Shown here piece by piece: positions 14,624 through 38,773 of a stretch of DNA of 64,000 bases (position 1 is its first letter; every line of letters starts with the position of its first letter). Both the position numbers and the translations under genes were made by a program. Source of the DNA: Bacteroidales bacterium (GTDB lineage Bacteria > Bacteroidota > Bacteroidia > Bacteroidales > Prolixibacteraceae); contig JAAYAG010000040.1 of NCBI GenBank assembly GCA_012719495.1, forward strand, positions 1 through 64,000, in the 5' to 3' direction. Below the pieces are notes generated by a model. That model was not told where the DNA came from, searched no databases, and saw only the letters and a program-made list of their open reading frames with translations.

Positions 14624-17600
14624 ATGAGACAGTGCGGAAGTGTAAGCTGGTATAAGTTTGGGCAGTGGGTTGTGTTTTTCAGCCTGCTTTTTGCTGTTTT
14701 GGCAACTCATGCGCAAAATCTTCCCCCGGTACCCGATTTAGGAATTCCTAATCAGCATGCCCGGGCGGGAGAGGTTTTTTCATGTGCAATTCCGTCAAAT
14801 GCCTTTCGAGACGAAAATAATGATCCCCTCCAGCTTACCATTACTGGACTTCCGACAGGACTTACGGCATCGGGAAATATAATTAGTGGTGTGGTAGCAG
14901 CGCCCCAAGTGGCCAATGTTACCGTTCTTGCAAGTGATGGTCAGTATTCTTCATCCTTAAATTTTAAAATCATTGTTCATGATACCAGTAGTCCGTATGC
15001 AGCTTTTTCTATGAGTGTACAGCGAGGTTGTGGTACTCAATACGTTAAATTTTCGAATAAGTCAGAAGTAAATGCCGGGGTTACTTATAACTGGGATTTC
15101 GGGAATGGCAATTCCTCTAAATATGCCGATAATACTGCAGCAGTTTATGCCTCTCCTGGAACTTATACCGTTACCCTTTCTTTTGTATATAATTCAACAA
15201 CTTACACATATTCCGATCAAATAACTGTTTACCCTTTACCTGCTGCTGCAATTAGCCGCTCACCCTTAGTTGATGCATGTGAACCTTTTCAAGTTACATT
15301 AACCGCGAGTCCCTCCGGGGCAAAATATTATCAATGGTTTTCCAATCAATTCACTGATCAGCAACAATATGCATCGGTTTCAAATTCTACCGTGATTGAG
15401 GGCTTGAAAGATGGCGTTTATACTATCGACCTTACAGTGACCGACGCGAACGGGTGCAAGGGGCAAGTGAAAGCTGAGAACCTTTTTACGGTGTATGATA
15501 AACCCGAAAATTCATTTACGTTCTTGAAAGGTAACGCTTGCGAACCTTCGCCAACTTCTTTTACCCGCGAAACCGCACTCGTTGGAAGTACTGTTAAGTC
15601 GGCTACATGGACTGTGGATGGGCAACAAATCAATACGCTTGATATACCTTACGTTCACAACTTTACGTCTACGGGTAATCATATAGTCTCTTTGGTAACT
15701 GTTTCAGAACAAGGTTGCCAGTCTGATGCCTTTGTCGATACCGTGTTGTTCAATAGCAACAATAGCGCCTTTTTTAGCGTTACTCCCAGTCAGGCATGTC
15801 TGGGTACAACCTTTTCGTTCGACGATAATGTTTCTTCAACCATTGTTTCGCGAACCTGGGATTTTGACGGTGATGGGACTATCGATGCATCGGGGCAAGA
15901 CCCAACGTGGACTTACACCGAGGCAGGTAATTTCCCGGCTACGTTATATGCCAAATTCACTGATAGCTGCGAACGTGTTATTACCCGTAATATTTTGGTC
16001 GAAAATATTGAGGCTGATTTTGTTGCCCAATATCAAGGTGATTGCGCGGGGACGATGTCTCTTGCGTTGACAGATAAAAGTAAATCGACTTTCAACTTAA
16101 CTTCATGGAAATGGTATTATCGTCGTAATGCTTCGCCGTGGATCATGGTTACAGGTCAACAACCGGCAGAAATTACTGATCTTGCTCCCGGAAATTACAG
16201 CATTAGTTTGGTTGTTGCTAATGGAATTTGTTCCGATTCAATCAATAAATCGATTCTTATTTCAGAGTCAAGTATTAGCGATATTATTCTGAGCGGTGCG
16301 GTTAATGGTTGTTCTCCGGCAGGGGAAACCCGCTTTTCGGCAGTGTTCAGCTCGGCATACGATGAACCTGTTGAATTCTCCTGGGATTTCGACAATAACG
16401 GTACCTATGATGCATTTACTGCAACTTCTGAGGCTGCTCATACATATACCTTACCCGGCGTTTATTCTGTTAAGGTAAGGGTTCGTACGGCTTCCGGGTG
16501 TTTTTACGAACGTGTGCTTTTTAATGCAGTTCGTTTTTCCAATCCTCTGGTTATTAATAATGTTACTCTTAATCAACCCGATCGTTGTTATCCTACAGGG
16601 ATTAGCTTGCAGGTCGAAGTTCCTGCCGGAACCGACTCTCTGCGTTTTATAGTTTATCCCGATACGGTCATTACGGTGAGTGCTCTTACCTTTCCAATAC
16701 ACACGTTTAATTATCGTTTCAAAAATATTGGTGTCTTTTATATCGATGTAGTTGCCATTGACAATGGCTGCGAATCAGCACCATATCGAGTCTCCGACAT
16801 TCATATTGACGGGCCTAAAGCTACATTCTCTACGGTAAGTTCATCGTTCTGTAACATTTTCGATGTGGCTTTTTCAAACCAAACTACCAATAATGTTGGT
16901 GCTACAACTAATTATTCGTGGAATTTTGGAGATGGAACCAGCAGCACTGAGAAAAATCCGTTGCACAAATACAGCGCGCCCGGTACGTATGTGGTTACGT
17001 TGGAGGCAACTGATCCCGATACTTATTGTTCTGATATCTATCAACAAGAAATTATCCTCTATGAATTTAATGATGATGTTGAGATAATTCAGCCCAAGGT
17101 TTTAAGCGGATGTGCGCCCTTGCAGGTTGAATTTACACTCGACGATTCTCAATTTTCATCAAATTTTGCGGTCGATTCGGTGGTTTGGGATTTCAGGGAT
17201 GGCACAATAATTAGGCAATCTTCCTTAGCAGCAGTGATCCATACCTTTCAAACGCCTGGGAATTATGCTGTTGCTGTTCAGATTTATGGGGCAGCAGGTG
17301 CTTGTTCTTTTTCATCCGAAATGGATAATGCTATAGAGGTTAAAGGCCCAATTATTGACGGAATATCGTATTTACCACAACCAGTCTGTGACCGTGATGT
17401 AACCTTCACTGCCCAAGTGAGCAAAACACCTGGAGACGATGGAGTTCCGGTAAGTTTTTATTGGGAGTTTGGCGACGGAACAAACGCAACGATGGCTTCA
17501 AACTCGGTGTCTCACCCATATAGCCGGGATTCTATCTTTTCAGTAATGGTAAGAGTTTCAGATAGCAACGGATGTTCTTCGGAATTGACTGTGAATAACC

Positions 17601-20600
17601 TCATTTCTATTCAATCATTTGATGCCAAATTTGCCTACGATCAGAATTTATGTAATTCAACCGCGGTAAGTTTCCATAATCGTTCGCAAGGTCAGGGGCT
17701 TACGTATTATTGGGATTTTGGAGATGGGAAAGGGGAGCAGGTTAAAGCTGAAACTGAATTCGCATATTCGTTCGATGTTGCGGGAAGTTATACCGTTAAT
17801 TTGCGTGTTGTTGCTCCCGGTGGGTGCGAAAGAACATATTCTGAAACCATAAATGTGATAAACATTTCTGCAGGTTTTTCTGCTACAGAAACAAATATTG
17901 GGTGTGCCCCGGCAATCGCAACTTTCATTCCAGATGCTACTGGGACAAATGCCGTTGCTTATATTTGGAATTATGGCGATGACACCCAGCCAGCATCCGA
18001 GCCTGTTCACAAATATTATACGCCTGGAGATTATACTGTTTCTCTTCAGGTATATTTTGATAACGGATGCGTTGTAACATCAAGTCCTAAAGTAGATTAT
18101 ATTCATGTTGAAGGGGCGTATGCCAAACTGCAATACAACCCGATTCCCAGATGTTCTCCCAACGAAATCGTATTTTCACTCACCGAGATGGATGATGTAG
18201 ACTCGATAACCTGGGACTTTGGAGACGGAAACCCAAATTATGCCTATCCATTCAATGACGCAATTGCTGCACACGATACCAGCTACCGGTACAATAATGC
18301 AGGTTTTGCACGCCCAAGTGTTGTGCTAACCAGCAATGTTTGTGGGAGCTATACCTTTGAGAAGTTTGGTGAAAGCAACGATCAGAAAAAGAAAATTTAC
18401 ACCAGTGTGCCACCTGTTGGTGCAATGGAAATCAGTGATTTAGAGATTTGCCAGGGAGTGCCGGTTACTTTCATCGATCGTAGTGTTCCGGCGCCTAAGG
18501 ACACGGTTGAAATTACCCGCTGGCAGTGGACATTTATGCCGGGAAGCACTTCAGATAAAGATAGTGTGGAATTTGCTTACCCTAATTGGGGACAATATCA
18601 ACCTGAACTTATTGTGTCGAACCGGTTGGGCTGTACCGATACTGTTACTTCTCCGGTTTGGATGACAATATACGATATCGAAAATATCAGTGCCGCCATA
18701 AACGCACCCCTTGTTGGTGAACTCGTTTGCGCGGGTACCGAAACAGATTTTCAAGGGCAAGCAAGCTCCAGCAATGGAGCAATAACTTCTTATGAGTGGG
18801 AATTTGGTGATGGTATAGGCTCGTTAAGTCAGAATACTACACATACATATAGTAAAGATACACGTGGGCAGCAAATGAATGTGTTATTTGTTGCCACCGA
18901 CGACAAACAATGTTCCGATTCGGTATTCCGCATTGTTACTATCAATAATCTACAGGCCGCCTTCGGTTACGAACCGCAACCCGTATACCGAGGCGACGCT
19001 GTTGATTTTACCGATTTGTCGGTTTCAACGGCATCAATAAATGCTTTGCAGTGGTCGTTCATAGGAGGACAACCCTCAACTTCCACCGAGCGGGATCCTC
19101 AAAATGTTGTTTATGAATTGATCGATCCAAACTATTCGGTTACGTTGGAAGTTACCGACGCTACAGGTTGTACCGATCAGATCACTCAGCCTTTACAGGT
19201 ACTTAACAACCCCCCGGTTGTTAGTGATTTTATGGTTCAATTCTTTGAGGGAATAAATTATTCTTTCCGACCCGATTCGTTTTTGCGCCATTACACCGAT
19301 AAAGATTTGCAAGCGATTAGTTCGATCCGGATTACTTCTTTGCCTGACACGGGAGCTCTCTTTTTTAACGGGGCTAAAGTAACCCAGCCTTTCGAATTTC
19401 CGTTCAGTCAGGCAGGAATGCTTGAATACCACCCTCCAATGGGTTGGTTTGGAACTACTTCTTTTGGTTGGAATGCTTCCGATGGTTCAGAATTTGGATT
19501 GCAAGGTGCCGCTATAAATATTGTGGTTCTCGATAAACCTGAACCTCCAATTCCACTCGATTTTATTATAGAAGTGGCCGAGAATGAGGTAGCTGTTATG
19601 CGGTTGGATACATTTATAAAATACATAAAGAATCCAACATTTCCAGGCTTTACACTCGATTCAATTCAGATTGTTTCAATTCCTGCTTCCTCCCGTTCGG
19701 TGTTAAATTTCAATGGGGCACCTGTTCAGCCTAATACAAAATATGCCAGTGCCGAAATAGGAAGTAAACTATTTAGCGTTGAGCTACCTCTGGGGTATAA
19801 CCAAAATTCTGTTTCGTTTTTATGGAATGGTTTCGACGGGATTAACTGGGGTACAGCAGCGGGCAGGATCACTGTTGTATACAAAAATAAACCGCCACAA
19901 ATTAATGACATTATACGTTCAGGGCTGGCTGAAGATTCGGAACAAACTATAGCTAAAAATGAGTTCTTTTCAAATTATTTCGACCTAGACCTTCACGATT
20001 CTTTTACAACGTTTTTGCTAAATGTTCCTTCAGGCACAAAAGGCACATTTAAAATCAATGGAAGTGCTTCGGTTAGAACTATTCCATTTAATCAGATCAC
20101 TTCGGTAACGTATACACCTTCAGTTGCTTATAATGGGGTTGTTGAAGTGTCGTGGGGTGCATCTGACGGGCAGGATACCACTTGGGCTACAATTCGGTTT
20201 GAATATGTTAATGCCCCGCCGGTAGCAAACGATATTTATGTTTCTGGCAAGGAAGATGAAAAACTCTCATTCCTTACAACTACTTTTTCAACAAAACCCA
20301 ATCCTTTTGAGGATGTGGATAAAAATGACAATCTGGGAAGTATTCGCGTTGAAACATTTCCGCAGCATGGTGTGTTACTGTTTGGCCCATCAGGCAATGC
20401 TGATACATTGAGAATTGGCGATTTACCTTTCGAAATTGCTGCTTCCCAAATCAATTACAAGTTAGTTTATATCCCAGAATCTAACTGGTATGGTTCTGAT
20501 TCATTTACCTATAGTTCCAATGATGGCTCAGACTGGTCGGCAAGCAGTGCTACGATATATATAACTATTACTGCTGTCAATGATCCGCCTGTAGCCCTTA

Positions 20601-23600
20601 ACGATACGGTATCATTCATTGAAGACCAACGGTTCTCTGACTATAATGTAATCTCTAACGATTTCGATGTTGACAACCTAAATAGTGAACTTTCGGTAAC
20701 AATTGATCATCCAGGAACAGCGGGCGCTAACGGGCAGATTGTGCTTACCCCTGGTGGAATGTTGTCGTACTTCCCAAATCAAAACTTTTATGGGAACGTG
20801 TATTTTACCTATTCGTTGTGCGATCCTGCCGGTTTGTGTTCATCGGCAACAGTATTTATAGAGATTTTGCCAGTAAACGATCCTCCGTTGGCTGTAAACG
20901 ATACTATCACTATTATGGAGAGCGATCCTGGGTTCGACTCTGATGAAACGACCAACTTGCTTGTCAATGATATCGATCCTGAAAACAACCCCAAAATGGT
21001 GATCTTGGCAGGCGGACAACTTCCGGGGACGATCCTTCAGGGAAGTTATGGTACTATCACTATTCGTAGCGATGGAAGTTTTTCGTATGTGCTTGATCCA
21101 ACCAAGGTGGAGTCGCTCGATGATAACGATCAGGTTTTTGATTCGTTTACTTATCAGGCTTCTGATGATGACCCTGAAAGTATTCCTACACAGGCTTCGT
21201 TGATCATAATCATCGATGGGCTTAACAGCCCACCATCACCTGTAAACGATACTGTTTATGTATCTGAAGATCTACTTATCGACTTTTATACAGAAGAATC
21301 GGTGCTAAGCAATGATACAGACCCTGAAAATAATCCTTTATCGCTAGTCGCGGTAAATAGTAATAGTGTAAGTCCGATAAGTGGTTCATTTGGTGAGTTC
21401 TCGTGGACGAATGAAGGCTTGTATAAATACGATCAAAAAGGGCAGTTCAATCATCTTTCGGAAGGGGCTACTGCACAAGTACAATTCGATTATACTGTTT
21501 CTGACGGAGGCCTTAGCAGTATTGGAATCTTGTTAGTTAACATTAACGGGCTTAATGATGCTCCAATTGCTCGGAACGATTTTTTTGAATTCAATATCGA
21601 TTTTGATTCTATGACTGTTGATGGAGGCTCGAATAATCGCCTGTTATTCAATGATTTTGATTTTGATGATGATGGCGATCAGCTCGAAATTGTTTCCATT
21701 AATGGGGTTTCCGGAACGGGTGTTTCCGTTGGAAGTGCTGGTCTTCTTCGATGGACTGAAAATTATTCAGGAACCTACACTTACATACCTGATGCTGATT
21801 CCATTATTAAGCTAAAGGACGGGGATGAGATTTATGATGTTTTTACCTATGTCATTAAAGATATCCATGGGGCTACTGATACTGCAAGCTTGACAATTAC
21901 TATTAGGGGGAAAAACGACAATCCACTTAGTAACGACGATATTTTCGAGATTTGGGAAGATACTTTACAAAATTCAATGCCTGCTCCCGGCTTGCTCGAG
22001 AACGATAGCGACCCCGAAAATGATCCTGTGGTGGTTGCAATAAACGACGAAACCAGCGGTATTATTCCTGGTCGGTATGGGCGTCTTGAGTGGGATTACT
22101 CAGGGGCATATACGTATTTCTCCGATTCGGCAACCGTTAACCATTTTGCCAAAGATTCGCTTTATACCGATACGTTCAGGTACAGGATGAAAGATAGCAA
22201 CAATGCCGATTCATATTCATTCTTATATGTCCGGATTAAAGGGCAGAACGATGCGCCATATGCTATCAACGATTACGATTATGTGAACGAACTCGATACA
22301 ATCCAGAAAATCAATGTTGATAGCGGTTTGTTGAAAAACGATTTCGATATTGATTATCATGATTCTGTTTCGGTATTGATGTTGAATAATCAGATGGAAG
22401 TTCCGGCTATCGGAATTTACGGGCAGCTATTCTGGGCGTCTGATGGTACATATACTTATGTGCCGAATGAAGAGACGGATACACTTAGTTTTGGCGAAAT
22501 CGTTATTGAAACATTTGACTACACCATTACCGACCTTCATGATTCGTTGACAAGTGCACAACTGATAATAAACATTACTGGCACGAACGATTCTCCGGTG
22601 GCGGTTAACGATACCATACAGGTTTCTGAGGATTCTCTGCAGGTTGCATTTGCCGAACCCGAAGAACGTCTTCTGTTTAACGATTTCGATGTAGACAGGG
22701 ATTCTTTCTGGGTTTATAGTGTCGATGCAAAGAAAAGCCCATCAATTTTATTGCCACATAGCCATATTGAATGGGATTCGACCGGGGCGTTTACGTATTT
22801 CCGTAATCCGGAACTCGATACGCTCGCTATTGCTACCCAAGTAATTGATTCGGTTAGGTATAGAGTTGTAGATGAAAACAATGCCTCGGGGTATGCTTGG
22901 CTCTACATTTACATTCTGGGCGAAAACGATGCCCCGGTTGCCGTACGTGACCACAATCAGTTGCTTGAAACAACCGACAGTATAGTAAGTGATGCTTCTA
23001 CTCTTTTGTTGGCCAATGATTATGATGTTGATAAGGGAGATACTATTGTGGTGAGCAGTGTTGGTAATAGTTCAGAAAGCATCATAGTTGGCCGATATGG
23101 AGAGCTGTTGTGGCAAGCTGATGGTTCTTACGTGTATTTCAATAATAACGAGGCAACCGATTCGCTTAAAGATGGAAATCAAGTTTCTGATTGTTTCCCA
23201 TATACCATTGTTGACAAGGAAGGAGCTACGGCACAAGATACCTTGCAAATAACCATCACTGGTGTTAACGATGAGCCGGTGGCCATAAGTGACACTCTTT
23301 CATTGTTCGAAGACGAGTTGGTTAAGGCGCTGGTTGCCGGAACTGACGGATTACTCGATAATGATATTGACGTAGATAATGAGCCATTGAGGGTCGTAAA
23401 CTTTGATAGCAGAAACCAATATTCATTTTCAACAGTTTATGGGGCAATAACCTGGGATCAGTTTGGCTCAATAACCTTTGAACCCAATCAGTTGGCTGTT
23501 GATTCATTAAAGCATAACGAAGAGGTGTCTGAACGGTTTACGTATGTCGTTAGCGATGCTCAGGTAAGCGATACCGCTCAATTAGTGATAATCATCAAGG

Positions 23601-26600
23601 GGTTGAATGATGCGCCAACGGCTCTAAATGACTCTGTTTTCATCGACGAAGATACCCTTTCTGTAAAGATTTCTACAAATGATATTCAACATCTTCGTGC
23701 AAACGATTCTGATGTTGATGGCGATTCAACTTTTATTCTGTCGATTAATGATTTACCCGAAGGAAATCAGGTAACAGGCTATTTTGGTACGCTGCTATGG
23801 GGAAGCGACGGAAGCTATACATATTATACCAATCAAGAAATTACCGATACGTTGGCCTATGGCGAAACCGTGTTCGAAACCTTTGTATATGTTTTGTCCG
23901 ATGTGTTGGGAAGTGTCGACACAGCCATGTTGGTTATTCAAATTGATGGGGTGAACGATCCACCGGTAGCCGTCAGAAACAATTATCGTACATACGACCG
24001 TATCCCTATTGCCATTTCGGCTCCATCGCCCGATGACATTTTGTATAATGATACCGATGTTGATGGCGATTACAAAGAACTTATTGCGGTGAATGAATCG
24101 GCCGATACGGTTACTACCGGGGTTTATGGCATACTTACATGGAGCAACGACGGTGGTTTTGAATACAAACCCGATTCTGCTTTCGCGGTAAGTTTGCGAC
24201 CTCTCGAAACCGTTGTCGATACTTTTGTGTATAGAATGCATGATGAATGGCAAGCTGCCGATACTTCACTCTTACACTTTACCATCGAGGGGATTAACAA
24301 TCCTCCGCGGGCAAGGAAAGATACCTTGTATTTGTCTGAAGATGATTTTTTTAAGAGTTTGCCCGCTCCGGGATTACTGATCGCAAAAAATGTGGATGAC
24401 CCGGATAAGGATACATTGACAGTGCAATCTATTACAGGCCCGTTAGCTACTTCTGTTCTGGATTCTGTTTCTGGTAACTATGGGTACATGAAGTGGGACA
24501 GTGTTGGAAATGTTACTTATTATCCTAATCAGGATGTCATTCATCAATTGGGTGATAGAGAATTTATTACTGAAACATTTACCTATACAGTTGTCGATCA
24601 GGGCAATCTTGCTGCTACTTCGAAATTGATTGTGCATGTTTTGGGCCAGAATGATCCGGTAACGGCATTTAATGATACGGCCAGTGTCGATGAAGATACT
24701 TGGTTGCGATACAACGTATGTGAAAACGATTCGGATATTGATTTCGACTGGGAAGGAAACTTCGATTATTCTGCATTAACTATTATTACCTCGCCTCAAC
24801 ATGGATTGGCTTCGCGAAACAGTGCAACGGGTGAAATATATTATAATCCCGATAAGGATTTTTATGGCGAAGACAGTCTGCAATATCGTATCTGCGACAC
24901 CGGCGATCCGGTTTATTGTGATGAGGCTTGGTTCTATATTCATGTGCTTCCAGTTAACGATCCCCCTGTCGCCACTCATTTGGTGCTCAAGACACCTGTG
25001 AACACCCCGATTGGGTTCAATTATCCGGCTCAGATTAATGATATTGATGATGGTATTGACTCCACTTCACTCATTCTTCTTTATGATGGGGATGCCGAAA
25101 TTACAAAAGATGAAGTTTATTATCAGATTACATATAATCCGGTAGCAGATTCTTCATATCGTGATGAATTTATTTATTCAATGACCGATAAAACGGCAGT
25201 GCCGGCTTATGTGATTGTGACCGTTCTGGTTGGCGATACCCTTTCAGATTTCTATGCACAGAATGATACTATTACGACAATTGAAGATACCGCTGTTGAT
25301 ATTTATAATCTTGCCAACGACACGATTGGTTCTGAATTCCCCGATCCGAGGAGTGTCGAGATTGAAGTGTTCCCGGTAAATGGGGTGGCTGTTTTCGATC
25401 CGGTGAAGCAGATTATTGTTTATTCACCTGATGAAAATTTTAATGGAAAGGATTCGCTTGCGTATATTTTAGCTTCAGGTCTTGGGCATTGGGATTTTGC
25501 ATGGGTTTATATCACTGTGCATCCGGTCGATGATGCCTTTGGTGCCAACGACGATTATGCGGAAACGTATGTGAATAGGACTGTTCAAATAGCCGCATTG
25601 GCTAATGATGTAGACCCTGATAATCTGGTTGATGCAGTTTCTGTTGCTGCTCAGCCTCAAAATGGGACAGCCATTGTAAATATTGACCAAACTATTGGAT
25701 ACACGCCAACGACTGGTTTTGTGGGTATCGATAGTTTTTATTACCGGATTTGTGATACCGAATCATCGGTATGCGATAGTGCCCGGATCATTGTTATTGT
25801 TTCTCCGGAAGAAAAACTCTTCGAGGCAATGAACGATGATTATTCTACCAATGAAAATGAGGTGTTGGTGATGGATAATCCGTTGCCAACCAATAACGAT
25901 AAAAATACAGATGCTACTGTACTTGTCGATCAGGGAACGTTTGAAGTAATCAGTGGGCCGGAAAACGGGAATTCTGTTTCGTTGGTCAATGTCGTTACCT
26001 ACACTCCTGATAACGATTATTTTGGACCCGATTGGATGCAATATATCGTGGCCGATTCTGTCGGCAACTGGGACATGGCCGAAATCAACATTTGGGTGAA
26101 TGAAATTAATACACCTCCGGTTGCTGTTAACGATACTCTAATCGTTACGAAAAATGAATTTAAGCGGATTTTCGTGCTCGAAAACGACTACGATACTGAT
26201 GGTTCGCTCAACTGGTCAACGCTTGACATTGTGGGCAATCCACAAAATGGCGAAGTAGTGGTTGATACACAAACCGGAACAATCCTTTATAAACCATCGA
26301 TTAACTCGGGTGATGACCATTTCACATACAAGATTTGCGATACTGAAGGTCAGTGCGCCCAAGCAACAGTTTATGTTACCATTGAACTTGAAACAACTAT
26401 ATATATATATCGCACCACCCTTGAAGATACCCCGGTTTCGATTGATGTGGCTGCAGAAATGGCAAAATACAACCTTACATTTGATGTCAATGAGATTATT
26501 GAAGAAGTGGCTCCCGACTTGGGAAACTATGTATGGAGCATCAATAATGAACTGTTAACTTATTCTCCTGTTCTTGACTTGAATGGTAAGGATACAATTC

Positions 26601-28117
26601 AGTTGAATGTTTGGTCGGGTGATCATAGCGAGTTTGCCTATTTGCGAATTTTCATTACCATTCTTCCGGTAAACGATGCACCTGTTGCCATTGGCGATAC
26701 CCTGTATTGGCTGAGTGCTCCCGATACATTAATGGCATCGTTCGAAGCGGTACTTGCCAACGATTATGATGTTGACGACGATACAATCCACCTTTCGCGT
26801 GAGGTTGTTGAAACCGGTTATGATGGTTTGTCTGTTGTTTTCAATGCAGATAGTACAATAGTAATAACTTCTGATTCAATAGAATGGTGTGATGCTTGGT
26901 TTATATATCAGATTTCTGATGGTGTACTTACCGATACTGCCATCGTGCAAATTTGGCCTTCGCTTGAGGGTATTTTAGCACACGACGACGAGGCTTCGGT
27001 TTTTGAAAATTCAACAGGAAACAAGATTGATGTGTTGGCAAACGATAGTTTTGTAGATAATCAACGTTGCACTATCGATACAATAATAATAGTAACGCCT
27101 CCGCAGCATGGTGTAGCTCAAGGTACTTATGATAACTTTGTTGAATATTCGCCAACATGCAACTTCTATGGGCAAGACCGGTTTATGTATCAGATTATTG
27201 ATATTTGGGGGCAGGAAAGCAGTGCTTGGGTTTATGTTGATGTAATTGAGCGAAACAGGCCTCCTGTGGCTGTCGACGATTCGGTGTCGAATCTTGGAGA
27301 AACCGTCAATATTCCTGTTCTTGACAATGACTTCGACCCAGATGCCCTATCTAGTGGCGAATGCGAAGGAGACCCCGAAGCACATATTGTTGCCGAAAAT
27401 ACTGTCTTGGTTGATGCGCCAATGTTTGGTACGGCAATTTTCGACCCTTCGACAAACAGTTTTGTATACACTCCCGAAGAAATGACTTGTACCGACTACT
27501 TTACGTATGCCATTTTCGATGAGAAGGGAGCTTCAGACACGGCAACCGTTACGGTCGATTTTAGTGAAGCACCCATTTTGGCCATTACCGATACGGTGAA
27601 AACTTATCCAGGAATATCTGTCGATGTTGCACCATTGCTCAACGATATTGGCTATTTTGTTGCTGACGAAACTATAATTGAAGAAACTTACCCTCTACAT
27701 GGTTTTTGGAGCCGGTTTGGAAACGAGGTGACTTACACTTCGGATAGAGATTTTATTGGGCACGATAGTTTGCTGTACACAATTATTTCTCCTTGTGGCG
27801 TTGAGCAAAGCGCATGGATTGTTTTCCTTGTTGAGGAACTCCGTGTGCCAGAAATAATATCCCCAAACGGTGACGGTTCGAATGACGTACTAATTATCAA
27901 TGGAATCGAATATTTCCCCGATTCTTGGCTGCAGATTTATAACCGCTACGGCCATATTGTATACGAAAAGAAACGTTACGATAATAGCTGGGGAGGGTAT
28001 TCAAACAAAGGAAGCTTGGGGGGAAACAAACCGTTACCTTCTGGAACCTATTATTACACGTTAACGTATAACGAAGGGAGGAACAAGCAAGCCGGATTTA
28101 TTTACATTTTCTGGTAA
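14624..28117 (+). CDS. Giant secreted PKD/cadherin-like repeat protein with T9SS type-B sorting domain
   Basis: A 4497-residue cell-surface or secreted adhesin candidate. It has a signal peptide (hydrophobic core VVFFSLLFAVLA, cut after THAQ near residue 31), then a putative Ig/cadherin-like module. PKD-type domains follow up to about residue 1540, with repeated WDFGDG-type motifs (NWDFGNG, WDFDGDG, WNFGDG, YWEFGDG). About 27 tandem-95/cadherin-like repeats run to about 4400, each starting near NDxPVAxND. The last 90 residues are a gliding-motility-type C-terminal domain (IISPNGDGSNDVL, IYNRYGHIVYE, LPSGTYYYTL), the T9SS type-B signal. Aspartates are very abundant, which suggests calcium binding. 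The partner PorP/SprF gene follows by 8 bp. Confidence 0.93.
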   Translation: MRQCGSVSWYKFGQWVVFFSLLFAVLATHAQNLPPVPDLGIPNQHARAGEVFSCAIPSNAFRDENNDPLQLTITGLPTGLTASGNIISGVVAAPQVANVTVLASDGQYSSSLNFKIIVHDTSSPYAAFSMSVQRGCGTQYVKFSNKSEVNAGVTYNWDFGNGNSSKYADNTAAVYASPGTYTVTLSFVYNSTTYTYSDQITVYPLPAAAISRSPLVDACEPFQVTLTASPSGAKYYQWFSNQFTDQQQYASVSNSTVIEGLKDGVYTIDLTVTDANGCKGQVKAENLFTVYDKPENSFTFLKGNACEPSPTSFTRETALVGSTVKSATWTVDGQQINTLDIPYVHNFTSTGNHIVSLVTVSEQGCQSDAFVDTVLFNSNNSAFFSVTPSQACLGTTFSFDDNVSSTIVSRTWDFDGDGTIDASGQDPTWTYTEAGNFPATLYAKFTDSCERVITRNILVENIEADFVAQYQGDCAGTMSLALTDKSKSTFNLTSWKWYYRRNASPWIMVTGQQPAEITDLAPGNYSISLVVANGICSDSINKSILISESSISDIILSGAVNGCSPAGETRFSAVFSSAYDEPVEFSWDFDNNGTYDAFTATSEAAHTYTLPGVYSVKVRVRTASGCFYERVLFNAVRFSNPLVINNVTLNQPDRCYPTGISLQVEVPAGTDSLRFIVYPDTVITVSALTFPIHTFNYRFKNIGVFYIDVVAIDNGCESAPYRVSDIHIDGPKATFSTVSSSFCNIFDVAFSNQTTNNVGATTNYSWNFGDGTSSTEKNPLHKYSAPGTYVVTLEATDPDTYCSDIYQQEIILYEFNDDVEIIQPKVLSGCAPLQVEFTLDDSQFSSNFAVDSVVWDFRDGTIIRQSSLAAVIHTFQTPGNYAVAVQIYGAAGACSFSSEMDNAIEVKGPIIDGISYLPQPVCDRDVTFTAQVSKTPGDDGVPVSFYWEFGDGTNATMASNSVSHPYSRDSIFSVMVRVSDSNGCSSELTVNNLISIQSFDAKFAYDQNLCNSTAVSFHNRSQGQGLTYYWDFGDGKGEQVKAETEFAYSFDVAGSYTVNLRVVAPGGCERTYSETINVINISAGFSATETNIGCAPAIATFIPDATGTNAVAYIWNYGDDTQPASEPVHKYYTPGDYTVSLQVYFDNGCVVTSSPKVDYIHVEGAYAKLQYNPIPRCSPNEIVFSLTEMDDVDSITWDFGDGNPNYAYPFNDAIAAHDTSYRYNNAGFARPSVVLTSNVCGSYTFEKFGESNDQKKKIYTSVPPVGAMEISDLEICQGVPVTFIDRSVPAPKDTVEITRWQWTFMPGSTSDKDSVEFAYPNWGQYQPELIVSNRLGCTDTVTSPVWMTIYDIENISAAINAPLVGELVCAGTETDFQGQASSSNGAITSYEWEFGDGIGSLSQNTTHTYSKDTRGQQMNVLFVATDDKQCSDSVFRIVTINNLQAAFGYEPQPVYRGDAVDFTDLSVSTASINALQWSFIGGQPSTSTERDPQNVVYELIDPNYSVTLEVTDATGCTDQITQPLQVLNNPPVVSDFMVQFFEGINYSFRPDSFLRHYTDKDLQAISSIRITSLPDTGALFFNGAKVTQPFEFPFSQAGMLEYHPPMGWFGTTSFGWNASDGSEFGLQGAAINIVVLDKPEPPIPLDFIIEVAENEVAVMRLDTFIKYIKNPTFPGFTLDSIQIVSIPASSRSVLNFNGAPVQPNTKYASAEIGSKLFSVELPLGYNQNSVSFLWNGFDGINWGTAAGRITVVYKNKPPQINDIIRSGLAEDSEQTIAKNEFFSNYFDLDLHDSFTTFLLNVPSGTKGTFKINGSASVRTIPFNQITSVTYTPSVAYNGVVEVSWGASDGQDTTWATIRFEYVNAPPVANDIYVSGKEDEKLSFLTTTFSTKPNPFEDVDKNDNLGSIRVETFPQHGVLLFGPSGNADTLRIGDLPFEIAASQINYKLVYIPESNWYGSDSFTYSSNDGSDWSASSATIYITITAVNDPPVALNDTVSFIEDQRFSDYNVISNDFDVDNLNSELSVTIDHPGTAGANGQIVLTPGGMLSYFPNQNFYGNVYFTYSLCDPAGLCSSATVFIEILPVNDPPLAVNDTITIMESDPGFDSDETTNLLVNDIDPENNPKMVILAGGQLPGTILQGSYGTITIRSDGSFSYVLDPTKVESLDDNDQVFDSFTYQASDDDPESIPTQASLIIIIDGLNSPPSPVNDTVYVSEDLLIDFYTEESVLSNDTDPENNPLSLVAVNSNSVSPISGSFGEFSWTNEGLYKYDQKGQFNHLSEGATAQVQFDYTVSDGGLSSIGILLVNINGLNDAPIARNDFFEFNIDFDSMTVDGGSNNRLLFNDFDFDDDGDQLEIVSINGVSGTGVSVGSAGLLRWTENYSGTYTYIPDADSIIKLKDGDEIYDVFTYVIKDIHGATDTASLTITIRGKNDNPLSNDDIFEIWEDTLQNSMPAPGLLENDSDPENDPVVVAINDETSGIIPGRYGRLEWDYSGAYTYFSDSATVNHFAKDSLYTDTFRYRMKDSNNADSYSFLYVRIKGQNDAPYAINDYDYVNELDTIQKINVDSGLLKNDFDIDYHDSVSVLMLNNQMEVPAIGIYGQLFWASDGTYTYVPNEETDTLSFGEIVIETFDYTITDLHDSLTSAQLIINITGTNDSPVAVNDTIQVSEDSLQVAFAEPEERLLFNDFDVDRDSFWVYSVDAKKSPSILLPHSHIEWDSTGAFTYFRNPELDTLAIATQVIDSVRYRVVDENNASGYAWLYIYILGENDAPVAVRDHNQLLETTDSIVSDASTLLLANDYDVDKGDTIVVSSVGNSSESIIVGRYGELLWQADGSYVYFNNNEATDSLKDGNQVSDCFPYTIVDKEGATAQDTLQITITGVNDEPVAISDTLSLFEDELVKALVAGTDGLLDNDIDVDNEPLRVVNFDSRNQYSFSTVYGAITWDQFGSITFEPNQLAVDSLKHNEEVSERFTYVVSDAQVSDTAQLVIIIKGLNDAPTALNDSVFIDEDTLSVKISTNDIQHLRANDSDVDGDSTFILSINDLPEGNQVTGYFGTLLWGSDGSYTYYTNQEITDTLAYGETVFETFVYVLSDVLGSVDTAMLVIQIDGVNDPPVAVRNNYRTYDRIPIAISAPSPDDILYNDTDVDGDYKELIAVNESADTVTTGVYGILTWSNDGGFEYKPDSAFAVSLRPLETVVDTFVYRMHDEWQAADTSLLHFTIEGINNPPRARKDTLYLSEDDFFKSLPAPGLLIAKNVDDPDKDTLTVQSITGPLATSVLDSVSGNYGYMKWDSVGNVTYYPNQDVIHQLGDREFITETFTYTVVDQGNLAATSKLIVHVLGQNDPVTAFNDTASVDEDTWLRYNVCENDSDIDFDWEGNFDYSALTIITSPQHGLASRNSATGEIYYNPDKDFYGEDSLQYRICDTGDPVYCDEAWFYIHVLPVNDPPVATHLVLKTPVNTPIGFNYPAQINDIDDGIDSTSLILLYDGDAEITKDEVYYQITYNPVADSSYRDEFIYSMTDKTAVPAYVIVTVLVGDTLSDFYAQNDTITTIEDTAVDIYNLANDTIGSEFPDPRSVEIEVFPVNGVAVFDPVKQIIVYSPDENFNGKDSLAYILASGLGHWDFAWVYITVHPVDDAFGANDDYAETYVNRTVQIAALANDVDPDNLVDAVSVAAQPQNGTAIVNIDQTIGYTPTTGFVGIDSFYYRICDTESSVCDSARIIVIVSPEEKLFEAMNDDYSTNENEVLVMDNPLPTNNDKNTDATVLVDQGTFEVISGPENGNSVSLVNVVTYTPDNDYFGPDWMQYIVADSVGNWDMAEINIWVNEINTPPVAVNDTLIVTKNEFKRIFVLENDYDTDGSLNWSTLDIVGNPQNGEVVVDTQTGTILYKPSINSGDDHFTYKICDTEGQCAQATVYVTIELETTIYIYRTTLEDTPVSIDVAAEMAKYNLTFDVNEIIEEVAPDLGNYVWSINNELLTYSPVLDLNGKDTIQLNVWSGDHSEFAYLRIFITILPVNDAPVAIGDTLYWLSAPDTLMASFEAVLANDYDVDDDTIHLSREVVETGYDGLSVVFNADSTIVITSDSIEWCDAWFIYQISDGVLTDTAIVQIWPSLEGILAHDDEASVFENSTGNKIDVLANDSFVDNQRCTIDTIIIVTPPQHGVAQGTYDNFVEYSPTCNFYGQDRFMYQIIDIWGQESSAWVYVDVIERNRPPVAVDDSVSNLGETVNIPVLDNDFDPDALSSGECEGDPEAHIVAENTVLVDAPMFGTAIFDPSTNSFVYTPEEMTCTDYFTYAIFDEKGASDTATVTVDFSEAPILAITDTVKTYPGISVDVAPLLNDIGYFVADETIIEETYPLHGFWSRFGNEVTYTSDRDFIGHDSLLYTIISPCGVEQSAWIVFLVEELRVPEIISPNGDGSNDVLIINGIEYFPDSWLQIYNRYGHIVYEKKRYDNSWGGYSNKGSLGGNKPLPSGTYYYTLTYNEGRNKQAGFIYIFW

Positions 28118-28125
28118 GCAGTATT

Positions 28126-29079
28126 ATGGTGAGAATAAACGACATATTACACAAGAACCTCGGTGTTGCATTGCTGGTTTTGTTCATGTTAGTTGGATCA
28201 GCAGCTTGGTCGCAACAGGATCCGCTGTATACACAATATATGAACAATATTATGTCGGTGAACCCTGCCTACACCGCTGTCAGAGGGGTTGCCAGTATCT
28301 CAACCGTTTATCGAAATCAGTGGATCCGACTCGATGGCGCCCCAAAATCAACGTCAATAAGCTTTAGCATGCCGGTTGATAGCCTGAACAAAATGGGGCT
28401 AGGAGTCGACTTTATGCACGATTATACCGTCCCGTTATCAACTTCAATGTTGTTTCTCAACTATTCTTACCGTGTTAATGTAGCAGGAAACACTACGCTA
28501 AGTCTGGGGTTAAAGGCAGGGGTAAGTTTTCTCGACGCCAATCTTGATGATCTTTATCGTTATCATCAGGAGGACATTTATATAATTGAGGATGGTGAAT
28601 ACCAGTCGTTGTTGTTCAATGCAGGCGTTGGTGCTTTTCTATATAATGATAATTTTTATGCCGGATTTTCTGTTCCTCGGCTATTTGAAAACCTTCACAA
28701 CAAGGATGTTACCGAGGTGAAAGCTGCAAGTCGCGAAAAACAGCATTATTTTCTTCACGGAGCTTATATGATTGACTTGTCAAATGAGGTGTCGTTTAAG
28801 CCTGGCCTTACTACTATTATGACACAAGGCGCTCCCTTGACTGCCGATTTCGATTTTTCTTTTCTTTTCCATGAGCAAATATGGATTGGGGTAATGTACA
28901 GGATTAGCGATGCCTTGGGTGGTTACATGCAATTCCAGTATAAAAATATTAAACTTGGCTTTTCATACGATTACTCGCATACGCGTTTGCGGCAATTCCA
29001 GTCCGGAACTTTTGAAGTTTTATTGCGTTATGATTTTCGCACTCGTGCTAATCAGCGTTTCCCGATACCCGTTTTTTAA
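28126..29079 (+). CDS. PorP/SprF family type IX secretion system membrane protein
   Basis: A 317-residue outer-membrane protein of the PorP/SprF family: signal peptide ending AAWSQ, then QDPLYTQYMNNIMSVNPAYTAVRG, YRNQWIRLDGAPKS and FSMP, followed by beta-barrel-like strands. Members next to a type-B CTD protein are needed to secrete or anchor that protein (SprF for SprB is the model). It starts 8 bp after the giant gene, so the two form an operon and a dedicated export pair. Confidence 0.93.
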   Translation: MVRINDILHKNLGVALLVLFMLVGSAAWSQQDPLYTQYMNNIMSVNPAYTAVRGVASISTVYRNQWIRLDGAPKSTSISFSMPVDSLNKMGLGVDFMHDYTVPLSTSMLFLNYSYRVNVAGNTTLSLGLKAGVSFLDANLDDLYRYHQEDIYIIEDGEYQSLLFNAGVGAFLYNDNFYAGFSVPRLFENLHNKDVTEVKAASREKQHYFLHGAYMIDLSNEVSFKPGLTTIMTQGAPLTADFDFSFLFHEQIWIGVMYRISDALGGYMQFQYKNIKLGFSYDYSHTRLRQFQSGTFEVLLRYDFRTRANQRFPIPVF

Positions 29080-29155: not shown

Positions 29156-30502
29156 TTATTCTTCCTGATCTTTTAGATATCGGTACAGAGTCGATTTCCC
29201 TACATCGAGGCGGCGGGCTACTTCTCTCACATTTTTATATTTATTGATAAAGTATAGGATAATTTCCTCGTTGTATTCCTGAAGTGTTTTTTCTTGAGAA
29301 AGAATATTTTGTCTGAGACTTAGTGGATTAATGTTGATGTGAGATGCCTCAATCGTATCCCCGTCAGAAAGGACACACGATAGCTCCATCAGTGCTTTAA
29401 GCTCGCGGACATTCCCAGGGAAAGGGTATTGCATAAGTTTATCCTGAGCTTCCGGGGTTATTTTCTTATAGGGAAGATCATTATCGTCGCAAAAATCGTT
29501 AACGAAGTGTTTTGCCAGCAGCACAATGTCATTGCCACGGTCTCTGAGGGGCGGCAGCTCAATGGTTAATCCCAGGAGTCTGAAATACAGGTCCTCGCGA
29601 AAAAGTCCTTTGTTTACTTGTTCCGATAGGTTCCGGTGGGTGGCAATAATAATCCTTATATCAAACTTAATGATTTTGTTGCTGCCCAGTCTTGTCAATT
29701 CACGTTCTTGCAGTACGCGTAATAGTTTTGCCTGGGTGTTCAGGTTCATTTCTGCAATTTCATCGAGGAACAGTGTACCCCCATCGGCTTGTTCAATCCT
29801 GCCGGGTTTATTGCTGTCGGCGCCAGTGAATGCTCCTTTCTCATACCCAAATAGTTCACTTTCAATTAGTGTGTCGGGAATAGAAGAAATATTGACAGGA
29901 ACAAAAGGCATATTGCTCCTTTTTGAGTTGTAGTGTATTCCTTTGGCAACCAATTCCTTACCCGTGCCTGTTTCTCCGTAGATCGAGACATTAATATTTG
30001 TTTGGGCAGCTTTGGCCATTAGAGTGAACATGTTTTCAATAGCTTTGCTACTTCCTTTAATCAAGTTCTTGAAATTGAATTCTTTGGTTATGGCCTGTTT
30101 GAGCCGGACGTTTTCATCGATCAACTCGATTTTTTCAATGATTTTTTCAATGGCAATCAGTATTTTATCGCGGGTATCGACTCCCTTGACAATATAGTCG
30201 TATGCCCCTAGTTTCAGCAATTCGATAGCTGTATTAATGTCATTTTGTCCCGAAACGATAATTACATTGGTTTGCGGGGTTATCTCAGTAACTTTTTCGA
30301 AAATTTCACGACCGTTGTAGTCGGGTAGGGTGTAGTCGAGTGAAATGATATCGGGTTTTTCGTTCAGCCTGTTAATACATTCCCGCCCTGTTGATATGGC
30401 ATGAACGTCGAATTTCTCATTCTGGGAAAGGAACTTGTACATTACTTTCAGGAACATATTGTTGTCGTCGACGATAAATATTTTATACTTTTTTGATGCC
30501 AT
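29156..30502 (-). CDS. Sigma-54-dependent response regulator (REC-AAA-Fis, NtrC family)
   Basis: A 448-residue enhancer-binding protein. The receiver domain (1-120) has the acidic pair Asp12-Asp13, phospho-acceptor Asp56 (SLDYTLPD) and a Lys in YIVKG. The AAA domain has Walker A GETGTGKE (176-183), the sigma-54 contact loop GAFTGA (223-228), Walker B GGTLFLDEIAE (241-251) and an arginine-finger region. The C-terminus is a Fis-type HTH (NVREVARRLDVGKSTLYRYL). Every activity residue is intact. No histidine kinase is adjacent. Divergent from it lie two sigma-54-like promoters, each preceded by paired GTCCC sites. The first pair is only 76-100 bp from its own start, so it may also control itself. 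Confidence 0.95.
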   Translation of the reverse strand: MASKKYKIFIVDDNNMFLKVMYKFLSQNEKFDVHAISTGRECINRLNEKPDIISLDYTLPDYNGREIFEKVTEITPQTNVIIVSGQNDINTAIELLKLGAYDYIVKGVDTRDKILIAIEKIIEKIELIDENVRLKQAITKEFNFKNLIKGSSKAIENMFTLMAKAAQTNINVSIYGETGTGKELVAKGIHYNSKRSNMPFVPVNISSIPDTLIESELFGYEKGAFTGADSNKPGRIEQADGGTLFLDEIAEMNLNTQAKLLRVLQERELTRLGSNKIIKFDIRIIIATHRNLSEQVNKGLFREDLYFRLLGLTIELPPLRDRGNDIVLLAKHFVNDFCDDNDLPYKKITPEAQDKLMQYPFPGNVRELKALMELSCVLSDGDTIEASHININPLSLRQNILSQEKTLQEYNEEIILYFINKYKNVREVARRLDVGKSTLYRYLKDQEE

Positions 30503-30577: not shown

Positions 30578-30602
30578 GTCCCGTTTTTGTTAAAAGTGTC
30601 CC
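30578..30602. promoter_or_regulatory. Paired GTCCC sites, module A (candidate enhancer)
   Basis: GTCCC at 30578-30582 and 30598-30602, 20 bp apart (two helical turns). The second site is 69 bp before TGGCAC of sigma-54 promoter A. Module B repeats both distances exactly. These are likely binding sites of the adjacent NtrC-type regulator. Confidence 0.65.
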
Positions 30603-30666
30603 ATTTTGAAACAAACATTGTTTTGGCATTATTGTTAATTGGCATTAAATCAATATTTTGCAATTT

Positions 30667-30681
30667 TGGCACACTGATTGA
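30667..30681 (+). promoter_or_regulatory. Sigma-54 (-24/-12) promoter A
   Basis: TGGCAC-N5-TTG with the GG (30668) and the G of TTG (30680) 12 bp apart, the canonical -24/-12 spacing. The last base is A instead of the usual C. Predicted start near 30693. Confidence 0.7.
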
Positions 30682-30692
30682 TATATAATATA

Positions 30693-30911
30693 TCAAAAGA
30701 TAAAACTTCGATGTTCAAGATTATAGTTTGTTAGTTTTTGAGGATTTTTTATATGGTTTTTTTCATAGGGGAAAGGTTTAAGTTTTTTGAGCGATTTTTA
30801 GTTTACAGATGAGGTAGTAAGGTTAATTAGTTGATGAGAGATTAGTGGAGAGAGAATGATTAATTTTACTAGTGGGGGGTAAAGTGCAGCTGAAGGGCTG
30901 CACTTTTTTTT
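30693..30911 (+). ncRNA. Candidate sigma-54-driven small RNA A (about 219 nt)
   Basis: A stretch with no credible ORF, bounded by a -24/-12 promoter at 30667 and a strong intrinsic terminator at 30881-30911. It lies divergent to the sigma-54 response regulator. The sequence is U/G-rich. The longest ATG frame is about 19 codons (from 30752) and shows no ribosome site. The layout resembles Qrr-type sRNA genes beside luxO, but no sequence relation is claimed. Boundaries are predictions. Confidence 0.6.
30881..30911 (+). terminator. Intrinsic terminator of module A
   Basis: Stem AAAGTGCAGC with GCTGCACTTT, loop TGAAGG, followed by eight Ts. A textbook rho-independent terminator with no ORF before it. 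Confidence 0.9.
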
Positions 30912-30940
30912 GGTTCTACCTAAAATATTATTGTTAATTA

Positions 30941-30965
30941 GTCCCAATCATTTTTAATTTGTCCC
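30941..30965. promoter_or_regulatory. Paired GTCCC sites, module B (candidate enhancer)
   Basis: GTCCC at 30941-30945 and 30961-30965, again 20 bp apart, with the second 69 bp before TGGCAC of promoter B. The second site extends into an inverted repeat (TCCCA-gaa-TGGGA). Confidence 0.65.
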
Positions 30966-31029
30966 AGAATGGGATTTTTTCGGGCATTGACTCTAGTTTA
31001 ATTTGCTGATTATAAACAACTAAGTAGTT

Positions 31030-31044
31030 TGGCACTCATCTTGT
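31030..31044 (+). promoter_or_regulatory. Sigma-54 (-24/-12) promoter B
   Basis: TGGCAC-N5-TTGT, with the same 12-bp GG-to-G spacing as promoter A. Predicted start near 31056. Confidence 0.7.
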
Positions 31045-31055
31045 ATATTTACTAT

Positions 31056-31314
31056 TACCGTTACAGAAGCAATTCTTTAATCAGGCGTTCATAGTTTAGT
31101 TCGGTTAGATAATCCATAACCATAAAACGGGGGTACTCAATTTTATCTTAAGTGCAATTTGGTTCATAATTAGGTTAGTTAGGTTTTGTTGATTGGTTGA
31201 AGTAAGCGTTTTTCATGGTTAAAAGTAGGGGAGAAGGGAGAATGTATTCCCGTGAAATTTAAAGAGTGGTTATGGGTTGAAAAGGTGCAGCGCTGCTGTA
31301 CCTTTTCTTTATTT
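31056..31314 (+). ncRNA. Candidate sigma-54-driven small RNA B (about 259 nt)
   Basis: The second module: sigma-54-like promoter, no convincing ORF, then a terminator hairpin at 31279-31316. Like RNA A it ends with a G-rich segment and a hairpin whose 5' arm contains GTGCAGC. It may be a diverged tandem duplicate of RNA A. Transcription might also continue into the small cysteine-rich gene at 31395. Boundaries are predictions. Confidence 0.58.
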
Positions 31315-31316
31315 TT
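31279..31316 (+). terminator. Intrinsic terminator of module B
   Basis: GAAAAGGT pairs with ACCTTTTC, with a further inner stem (GCAG/CTGT), followed by TTTATTTTT. The 5' arm GGTGCAGC resembles AGTGCAGC of terminator A. Confidence 0.8.
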
Positions 31317-31394
31317 CAAGTAGCTTACTATTAATTGATGGCTAATAAAAGCATATAAGCGATAGTTTTTTGATATTAAAAGCAAATTCAGATG

Positions 31395-31619
31395 ATGAAG
31401 TTTAAGCCTAAATGTTATAATAAATGCAGCGAATGTTTTTTCTACTATATAGATGGTTGCATAGCGTTGCCCGGCGAAGATTGTTTTGTTGCAATAACAG
31501 ACAATCATGCGCAGCTCATCGTTAAAAACCAGAATCGTTTTGATATCTCGGGGAAAGTTATTACAGAATTAAAAGATAAATTTCCTTCGGTTAAGCAGCA
31601 GCAATGTCAAATTCTTTAA
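31395..31619 (+). CDS. Small cysteine-rich hypothetical protein
   Basis: A 74-residue frame starting at the second of two adjacent ATGs (31392 and 31395). The N-terminal half carries five cysteines in CYNKCSEC then DGCIALPGEDC, a spacing that could bind a metal or an Fe-S cluster. The C-terminal half is charged and helical (ISGKVITELKDKF). I do not recognise a family. It follows sRNA module B on the same strand, and its stop overlaps the stop of the convergent T9SS protein gene. It could be a real gene or a chance frame. Confidence 0.5.
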   Translation: MKFKPKCYNKCSECFFYYIDGCIALPGEDCFVAITDNHAQLIVKNQNRFDISGKVITELKDKFPSVKQQQCQIL

Positions 31620-37607: not shown

Positions 37608-38213
37608 ATGAACCAAAATATTATGAACAATAAGAAAAACCACAAAAAGACTTCGGCAGAGCAAAATAAAGCATTGCTAAAAGAGCTACTGCCGCTTATG
37701 AAAGCATTCGGCTTATGGATTGTATTGGTCGTTATTGTAGCTTGGGACTATACGAATAATCGTTGGTTCTCAATGTTTTTTGTTGATATGACCACCTACA
37801 TCTCTCACGTGATGGCTAAAGTAATGTTTATCCCATCGAAAATTGTTGGTGACGGGCAAAGTATGGTAACTACTTTAGTTGTTAATTACAAGACAATTGT
37901 TATCAATCACTATCCAATGATTGTTGAGATTGAATGCTCTGCTTATCACGCGTACATCGCTATGATTGCTTTGGTTATTTTTTCAGCGTGGAGTGTAAAG
38001 CAGAAATTAATTGGAGGCGCAGCTTTATTTGGATTACTGGCTCTTATTAATTCATTCCGAATAGTAATGCTTGGACTCATTGGTCGGCTCTATCCTCAGA
38101 TATTCAATGTGATGCATGATTATGTCTGGAATATTTTGTTGGTGATAATCATTTGGGCACTTTGGGAACTTGCCAACCGAAAAATTAATAAAATAAATGC
38201 CGCATTAGTATGA
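37608..38213 (+). CDS. Exosortase/archaeosortase-family transpeptidase-like membrane protein
   Basis: A 201-residue polytopic membrane protein with the exosortase catalytic triad: Cys110 in IECSAYHAY, Arg151 in INSFRIVMLG and His170 in VMHDYVWN. These enzymes cleave C-terminal sorting signals. A basic N-terminal tail (NNKKNHKKTSAEQNK) precedes the first membrane segment. It is shorter than proteobacterial EpsH/XrtA and like the compact Bacteroidota forms. An in-frame ATG at 37623 is an alternative start. Its stop overlaps the next gene as ATGA. Two proteins with a shared VPxxYW tail lie 4-10 kb downstream and are candidate substrates. The exact Xrt class cannot be fixed here. Confidence 0.85.
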   Translation: MNQNIMNNKKNHKKTSAEQNKALLKELLPLMKAFGLWIVLVVIVAWDYTNNRWFSMFFVDMTTYISHVMAKVMFIPSKIVGDGQSMVTTLVVNYKTIVINHYPMIVEIECSAYHAYIAMIALVIFSAWSVKQKLIGGAALFGLLALINSFRIVMLGLIGRLYPQIFNVMHDYVWNILLVIIIWALWELANRKINKINAALV

Positions 38214-38773
38214 AAAAGTATCTGCGTATAGTGGTTTTTATAGTAGCCAGTTTCCTGTTTTATCTTTTGTGGGTTAACGGCGGAGAACAGGCTTATGGTA
38301 AGTTGGTTACTGTAGGAATAGATAAGATAACGTCTAAAGTTTCGGGCATTAAGAAGGCTGAATTCAAGCATTTTGAAGAGGAAGAAAAAACGCTGATATA
38401 TTGCTATTATAGCGACAGGAAAACCAACATTGCCCTCGAGTTCTGTTTGCCCATCGTATTATTATTGGCATGGCATTTGTCATTATTCTTCGACAACCGT
38501 ATAAGGTACAAGGTGGCATTTAAGTTGTTTGCTTTTAACTTTCTGATTGTATATTTTTTGCAGATAATGTTCCCATTACTGCTTTATAATATCAGCCAGT
38601 CGAAAGCAAAAGCTACGGGGCTTTTTATCGGGTTACAGGTTTTTGGGTTTATTGTGTTTTTCCTGATGATAAAAGATTCACTGTTGATAAAACTCAAATA
38701 TTCTTCAGAAATTGAAAACCAGGAACCTATTCAGCGTGTTGTTAATACAATTGAAAAAAACAAAAAGAAATGA
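38210..38773 (+). CDS. Exosortase-linked integral membrane protein
   Basis: A 187-residue protein with an N-terminal membrane anchor (LRIVVFIVASFLFYLLWV), a short extracytoplasmic segment and three further hydrophobic helices, ending in a basic tail (NTIEKNKKK). No enzymatic motif is visible. It overlaps the exosortase gene (ATGA) and the thioredoxin gene (ATGA), which indicates strict co-translation. It probably acts as an exosortase partner; NCBI lists an associated membrane protein beside some Bacteroidota exosortases, but I could not compare the sequences. Confidence 0.7.
   Translation: MKKYLRIVVFIVASFLFYLLWVNGGEQAYGKLVTVGIDKITSKVSGIKKAEFKHFEEEEKTLIYCYYSDRKTNIALEFCLPIVLLLAWHLSLFFDNRIRYKVAFKLFAFNFLIVYFLQIMFPLLLYNISQSKAKATGLFIGLQVFGFIVFFLMIKDSLLIKLKYSSEIENQEPIQRVVNTIEKNKKK

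Follow-up and report, generated by a model that had tools for sequence, protein, structure and literature searches.

Here, we identify, in the window analysed (a stretch of 64,000 nucleotides from an uncultured member of the Prolixibacteraceae), what are very probably twin sigma-54-dependent small RNA genes that are opened by the regulator encoded at 29156-30502 and whose RNAs most likely act in trans. Sequence reading and pattern scans found twin tandem modules, divergent to the gene of this REC-AAA-HTH activator and each consisting of GTCCC, a second GTCCC, TGGCAC-N5-TTG, an ORF-poor stretch, and a terminator (Table 1). We suggest a model in which the regulator, once its receiver domain is activated, would bind as an oligomer, ∼70 bp ahead of either -24/-12 promoter, to a half-site and a palindrome two helical turns apart, and would use ATP to open the sigma-54 polymerase complex. 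The output would be two terminated non-coding RNAs of ∼220 and ∼260 nt, both with a UUAGGUUGAAGUU-type box and a hairpin whose loop is purine-rich; their action is most likely post-transcriptional and in trans, possible targets being envelope or type IX secretion genes, e.g., neighbouring ones.

Table 1. Features of the small RNA locus and its nearest neighbours (window positions)
Feature	Position	Strand	Basis
REC-AAA(sigma-54 interaction)-HTH activator, 448 aa, presumed enhancer-binding protein	29156..30502	-	Pfam PF00072, PF00158, PF25601, HTH_7
Module 1 upstream enhancer half-site GTCCC, putative	30578..30582	+	Pattern scan; kept in promoter alignment
Module 1 second enhancer site, putative, palindromic GTCCCATTTTGAAAC	30598..30612	+	Sequence and promoter alignment
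Module 1 predicted sigma-54 -24/-12 promoter TGGCACACTGATTG	30667..30680	+	Pattern scan; conserved; expected start ∼30692
Small RNA 1 (type a), predicted, ∼220 nt, without conserved ORF	30692..30911	+	Promoter-to-terminator span; homologues in relatives
GGTTTAAGT, RNA 1 version of the conserved GGTTGAAGT box	30775..30783	+	RNA comparison
RNA 1 hairpin, 15-bp stem, purine-rich loop (GAGAGATTAGTGGAGAGAGAA)	30815..30871	+	Stem test p=0.003; covarying pairs with relatives
RNA 1 intrinsic terminator	30881..30911	+	Stem identical in G003 and G024
Module 2 upstream enhancer half-site GTCCC, putative	30941..30945	+	Pattern scan
Module 2 second enhancer site, putative, palindromic GTCCCAGAATGGGAT	30961..30975	+	Sequence and promoter alignment
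Module 2 predicted sigma-54 promoter TGGCACTCATCTTG	31030..31043	+	Pattern scan; expected start ∼31055
Small RNA 2 (type b), predicted, ∼260 nt, without conserved ORF	31055..31314	+	Homologous b RNAs in G003, G024
Conserved box GGTTGAAGT in RNA 2	31195..31203	+	RNA comparison
RNA 2 hairpin, purine-rich loop (GTAGGGGAGAAGGGAGAATG)	31211..31257	+	Stem test p=0.037
RNA 2 intrinsic terminator	31280..31316	+	Transcript end ∼31314
Cys-rich 75-aa ORF, conserved neighbour, probably outside the RNA genes	31392..31619	+	After modules in G003, G024, G149, G150, G154

Several lines of evidence support this reading. First, the layout is strictly repeated: in modules 1 and 2 alike, the two GTCCC sites are 20 bp apart and the second lies 69 bp from the promoter (start to start), and across the 64-kb window each sub-pattern has exact matches at the sites of the two modules and nowhere else. 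The coordinates, both distances and the terminators given for twin modules of equal spacing in the initial annotation are confirmed. The second GTCCC is one half of a palindrome; the second site reads TGTCCCAAAATGAAACA, an inverted repeat, as would be expected for a dimeric activator, with the first site as a putative half-site two turns upstream. Both modules have the -24/-12 element at fixed spacing and the paired upstream sites at a fixed distance that mark a sigma-54 promoter, and the promoter of their own, terminator of their own and absence of a conserved ORF that mark an intergenic small RNA gene.

Second, the architecture is conserved together with the regulator. Both G003 and G024 (genus label g4), as well as six g17 genomes, have regulator orthologues at 66-78% identity; elsewhere in the family, more remote relatives are at 48-61%, and others across Bacteroidota match its first 206 residues at ∼41-52%. 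The scan of related genomes set in advance as a test found the GTCCC/TGGCAC pattern kept in close relatives beside regulator orthologues: the full pattern (gap of 55-75) matched in 3 of 61 family or order genomes, every time beside the regulator or its orthologues, against 1 match for the reversed control. The strict matches were the two modules of the window and one each in G003 and G024, where the module lies between a Cys-rich small ORF and the regulator, as in the window. In eight modules located via the regulator and without use of the pattern, too, the sites are 20 bp apart and the second site is 68-70 bp from TGGCA; the regions divergent to the regulator in G003, G024, G149, G153, G033 and G151 have this layout. 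The same architecture occurs beside or near regulator orthologues in two further Prolixibacteraceae groups. A pattern search of 140 family genomes added further modules, among them twins in G150 and G154 that lie upstream of the Cys-rich ORF with the regulator not directly adjacent. In G154, a gene for a 301-aa protein, transposase-like by eye, stands between the two RNA modules (L148, between 86 and 1500). Counting against our explanation are the lack of direct adjacency to the regulator in G150 and G154 and the second RNA of G003 and G024, which has no enhancer or promoter of its own.

Twelve aligned promoters have a mean column identity of 45%, with almost no invariant columns outside TCCC, GTCCCA-NNN-TG and TGGCA-N6-TTG. 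Because motif and spacing both outlast the divergence of the surrounding promoter sequence, the alignment supports selection on the motif, its spacing and its phasing, as had been argued from the two modules alone. We infer that the adjacent regulator controls the modules because regulator and modules are co-conserved. For the more remote regulators in other Bacteroidota, no divergent module was seen at the loci (all but ∼20 of 80) where the regulator start could be placed automatically. The palindromes GTCCCGATTTGGGAC, TTCCAAATTTGGGAA and TTCCCATTATGGGAC stand upstream of more distant regulator homologues (L018, L019, L021) and are possibly autoregulatory sites.

Third, the same operator-promoter code precedes protein genes. 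In group g11, a two-site operator ∼70-72 bp from TGGCA[CT]-N5-TTG precedes genes for ∼190-aa proteins with signal-like N-termini (for two entries listed at 61 bp, the full promoter element stands 10 bp further on). Some genomes have these genes as arrays, and a paralogous regulator (∼50% identical) lies several kb away. One such promoter also lies before a protein gene in a g17 genome (G154:C203). The g11 genes with this code support the enhancer reading of the motifs in the window, and this regulator clade appears to use the code as a genuine type of enhancer-promoter, with RNA output as one of the uses. Because the code also precedes protein genes, the pattern alone cannot predict an RNA. 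Arrays of ∼190-aa predicted exported proteins of unassigned family stand behind this enhancer-promoter type at L182 14053-16705 and L183 93-2825; downstream of the L182 array come a protein with weak similarity to WxL-interacting proteins and a predicted outer-membrane protein of large size.

The regulator has the domains of an NtrC-family sigma-54 activator in Pfam, i.e., REC, Sigma54_activat and a C-terminal HTH. Its initial description as a REC-AAA-Fis protein holds for the first two domains, but the HTH is HTH_7 and not the Fis-type HTH_8. The regulator is not an equivalent of LuxO (317 bits against a model cutoff of 800) or of the NtrC of nitrogen regulation (372 bits against 558.6 for the NCBIfam equivalog TIGR01818). 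A further point against our explanation is that rpoN was not detected in the 151 contigs of the window's own assembly, while it is present in 38 of 41 genomes searched. In G003, rpoN adjoins asnS; in the window's genome, asnS ends ∼620 bp short of a contig end, with a methyltransferase-like frame between (G000:C9:1-1537, L188). Because asnS lies so near a contig end and five full-length sigma-54 activators are still encoded in the assembly, the absence of rpoN is likely an assembly or contig gap, which is the simplest explanation.

The transcripts look like an RNA family that is absent from Rfam and apparently undescribed before. We compared 14 RNAs: the two of the window (W1 and W2), two each from G003, G024, G150 and G154, and one each from G149, G153, G033 and G151. 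The initially reported absence of ORFs from the transcripts is borne out: in RNAs 1 and 2, no ORF exceeds 24 codons and none is common to the homologous RNAs, and across the 14 RNAs the longest ORFs (4-39 codons) are mutually unrelated except for short frames in the close pair G003/G024. The 13-nt box UUAGGUUGAAGUU is invariant across six g17 RNAs and is recognisable in the others: W1 has it as GGUUUAAGU, W2 and the a-RNAs of g4 as GGUUGAAGU, and the b-RNAs of g4 as GGUUGAGUU. Downstream of the box, 10 of 10 RNAs tested have a hairpin with an 8-15 bp stem and a purine-rich loop, often GAGAGAUU, GGGGAAG or GGAGAGAG, and all RNAs end in terminators. The stem sequences vary by group (AGTAAAATTAAT, GATCAGT, GTTTAAAA). 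MAFFT/RNAalifold across all RNAs recovered the terminator alone; it misses the hairpin because the stems differ between groups, and the stem of each RNA was therefore tested against shuffles. Individual p values were 0.003-0.04, and the combined value of ∼1e-9 is overstated because the RNAs are related. Covariance, the structural check proposed initially, gave a mixed result: W1, G024a and G003a can be aligned without ambiguity, and 12 of 12 stem pairs are then kept, two of them changed on both sides, and sliding the partners abolishes pairing, but with three sequences the covariation count is not above the column-shuffle control. In Rfam, no family was matched at the gathering threshold; permissive settings gave chance-level matches, Qrr not among them.

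How the RNAs may act is suggested by these elements. There is about an even chance that they base-pair with mRNAs in trans, as do Qrr, FopS and GibS, the seed being either the UUAGGUUGAAGUU box or the purine loop. A short invariant box in otherwise diverged RNAs and a conserved loop presented by a hairpin are typical of seeds, and base-pairing sRNAs are known in Bacteroidota, i.e., GibS and FopS (PMC11697453) and Rfp18 (PMC9723704). However, near-perfect complements of the box, sought in nine genomes, showed no enrichment relative to a reversed control, and the exact complement matches inspected lie mostly inside coding sequence. Duplex target prediction within the window gave long unspecific duplexes, which were discarded.

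A possible but rather unlikely alternative is that the RNAs titrate an RNA-binding protein, e.g., an RRM protein, via GUUUAG/UUAG and AGGGGA repeats, following a CsrB-like logic. GTTTAG occurs 17 times in the 14 RNAs against 3.7 expected and AGGGGA 9 times against 1.3, and the window's genome encodes two RRM proteins; titration stays in consideration because of these motif repeats and RRM proteins. Bacteroides generally lack Hfq, ProQ and CsrA, and RbpB of B. thetaiotaomicron binds GUAGGAUA (PMC12119571). Against titration, the repeat counts are not independent, the RNAs being homologous, structure prediction does not show UUAG as particularly unpaired, and UUAG content within single RNAs is mostly not significant. 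The more specific proposal that sigma-54-switched tandem decoy RNAs titrate an RRM-type protein via GUUUAG/AGGGGA and, in that way, control surface or type IX-secreted proteins is unlikely; if true, it would place a CsrB-like circuit in a phylum generally without CsrA and Hfq. On precedent (PMC11697453, PMC9723704), we favour base-pairing over protein titration.

It is very doubtful that the modules, instead of encoding free sRNAs, are leader RNAs or attenuators of the Cys-rich ORF that lies downstream. This ORF follows the modules in the window's genome (G000) and in G003, G024, G149, G150 and G154, and has no Pfam or NCBIfam match. However, each RNA has its own terminator, and module 2 stands between module 1 and the ORF. 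Moreover, in G153, G033 and G151, the next gene after the RNA is a converging CHU_C gene with no Cys-rich ORF in between, and a leader role is disfavoured because these three genomes have the RNA without the ORF downstream. That the modules are decayed promoters whose protein genes have been lost, their equal spacing merely inherited from a tandem duplication, would fit the protein genes behind the same enhancer-promoter type in g11 and the rpoN not seen in the window's assembly, but is highly improbable given that spacing, RNA box, hairpin and terminators are kept between groups whose other sequence diverged.

The genomic setting suggests candidate targets. A PorP/SprF-family gene (28126-29079) follows the regulator, a 4497-aa repetitive ORF (14624-28117) lies beyond it, and a CHU_C type IX secretion protein is encoded on the other side of the locus. 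PorP-like proteins have been proposed as anchors of type B CTD proteins (PMC9143113), and surface display is a plausible candidate target of the RNAs. The 4497-aa ORF is a predicted giant surface protein that, together with the PorP/SprF-family gene, resembles a type B CTD-like adhesin/anchor pair beside the regulator. In G150 (L180 2557-8166), the regulator gene is preceded by coiled-coil-like, OmpA-like, Ras-like GTPase and histidine kinase genes (the first three named by eye), a candidate sensing operon; in the window's genome, a search for this kinase gave weak generic matches and no close orthologue. Elsewhere in the window (37608-38773), two predicted membrane proteins lack a Pfam match, and the first is exosortase-type-like by eye. 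Altogether, the locus offers a putative new RNA family for which operator and candidate activator are defined, and its syntenic neighbours (PorP-like, giant surface and CHU_C proteins) tie it to the biology of adhesins and type IX secretion. Because RNA and protein outputs have the operator code in common, it is also a ready means of finding regulons in the poorly studied Prolixibacteraceae.

Gammaproteobacteria supply most of the known examples of enhancer-driven sRNA circuits. In the LuxO-Qrr system of Vibrionaceae, several small RNAs, including one encoded next to the regulator, are transcribed from sigma-54 promoters under an NtrC-type response regulator. The wiring of the window's locus is alike, with a regulator and sigma-54 promoters leading to predicted small RNAs; however, this is an analogy and not family membership. 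The window's locus differs in its GTCCC palindrome operator, its RNAs of 220-260 nt, its different box and the lack of an Rfam match, and in its genome the kinase encoded ahead of the G150 regulator has no close orthologue. The Qrr-like RNA pair of the initial annotation thus stands as probable sigma-54/enhancer-type non-coding RNA genes with conserved pattern, box and hairpin, but not as Qrr by the LuxO cutoff, Rfam, operator or RNA architecture. Decoys of the CsrB/RsmZ type are regulated non-coding RNAs with repeated short motifs and hairpins; the window's RNAs have both features in common with them but lack an array of GGA-loop hairpins. The g11 sigma-54 enhancer-promoters have the same two-site operator, spacing and promoter, and differ in their output of ∼190-aa predicted exported proteins instead of RNA. 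FopS and GibS of Bacteroides thetaiotaomicron are likewise paralogous Bacteroidota sRNA families tied to surface functions, whereas FopS, with canonical sigma-ABfr promoters and a length of ∼65-70 nt, is set apart from the window's RNAs by description (PMC11697453). The literature searched, the coverage of which is incomplete, does not describe sRNAs that depend on sigma-54 in any member of the Bacteroidota. Compared to these systems, the RNA family, the operator and, as far as that literature shows, the phylum for such wiring would all be new.
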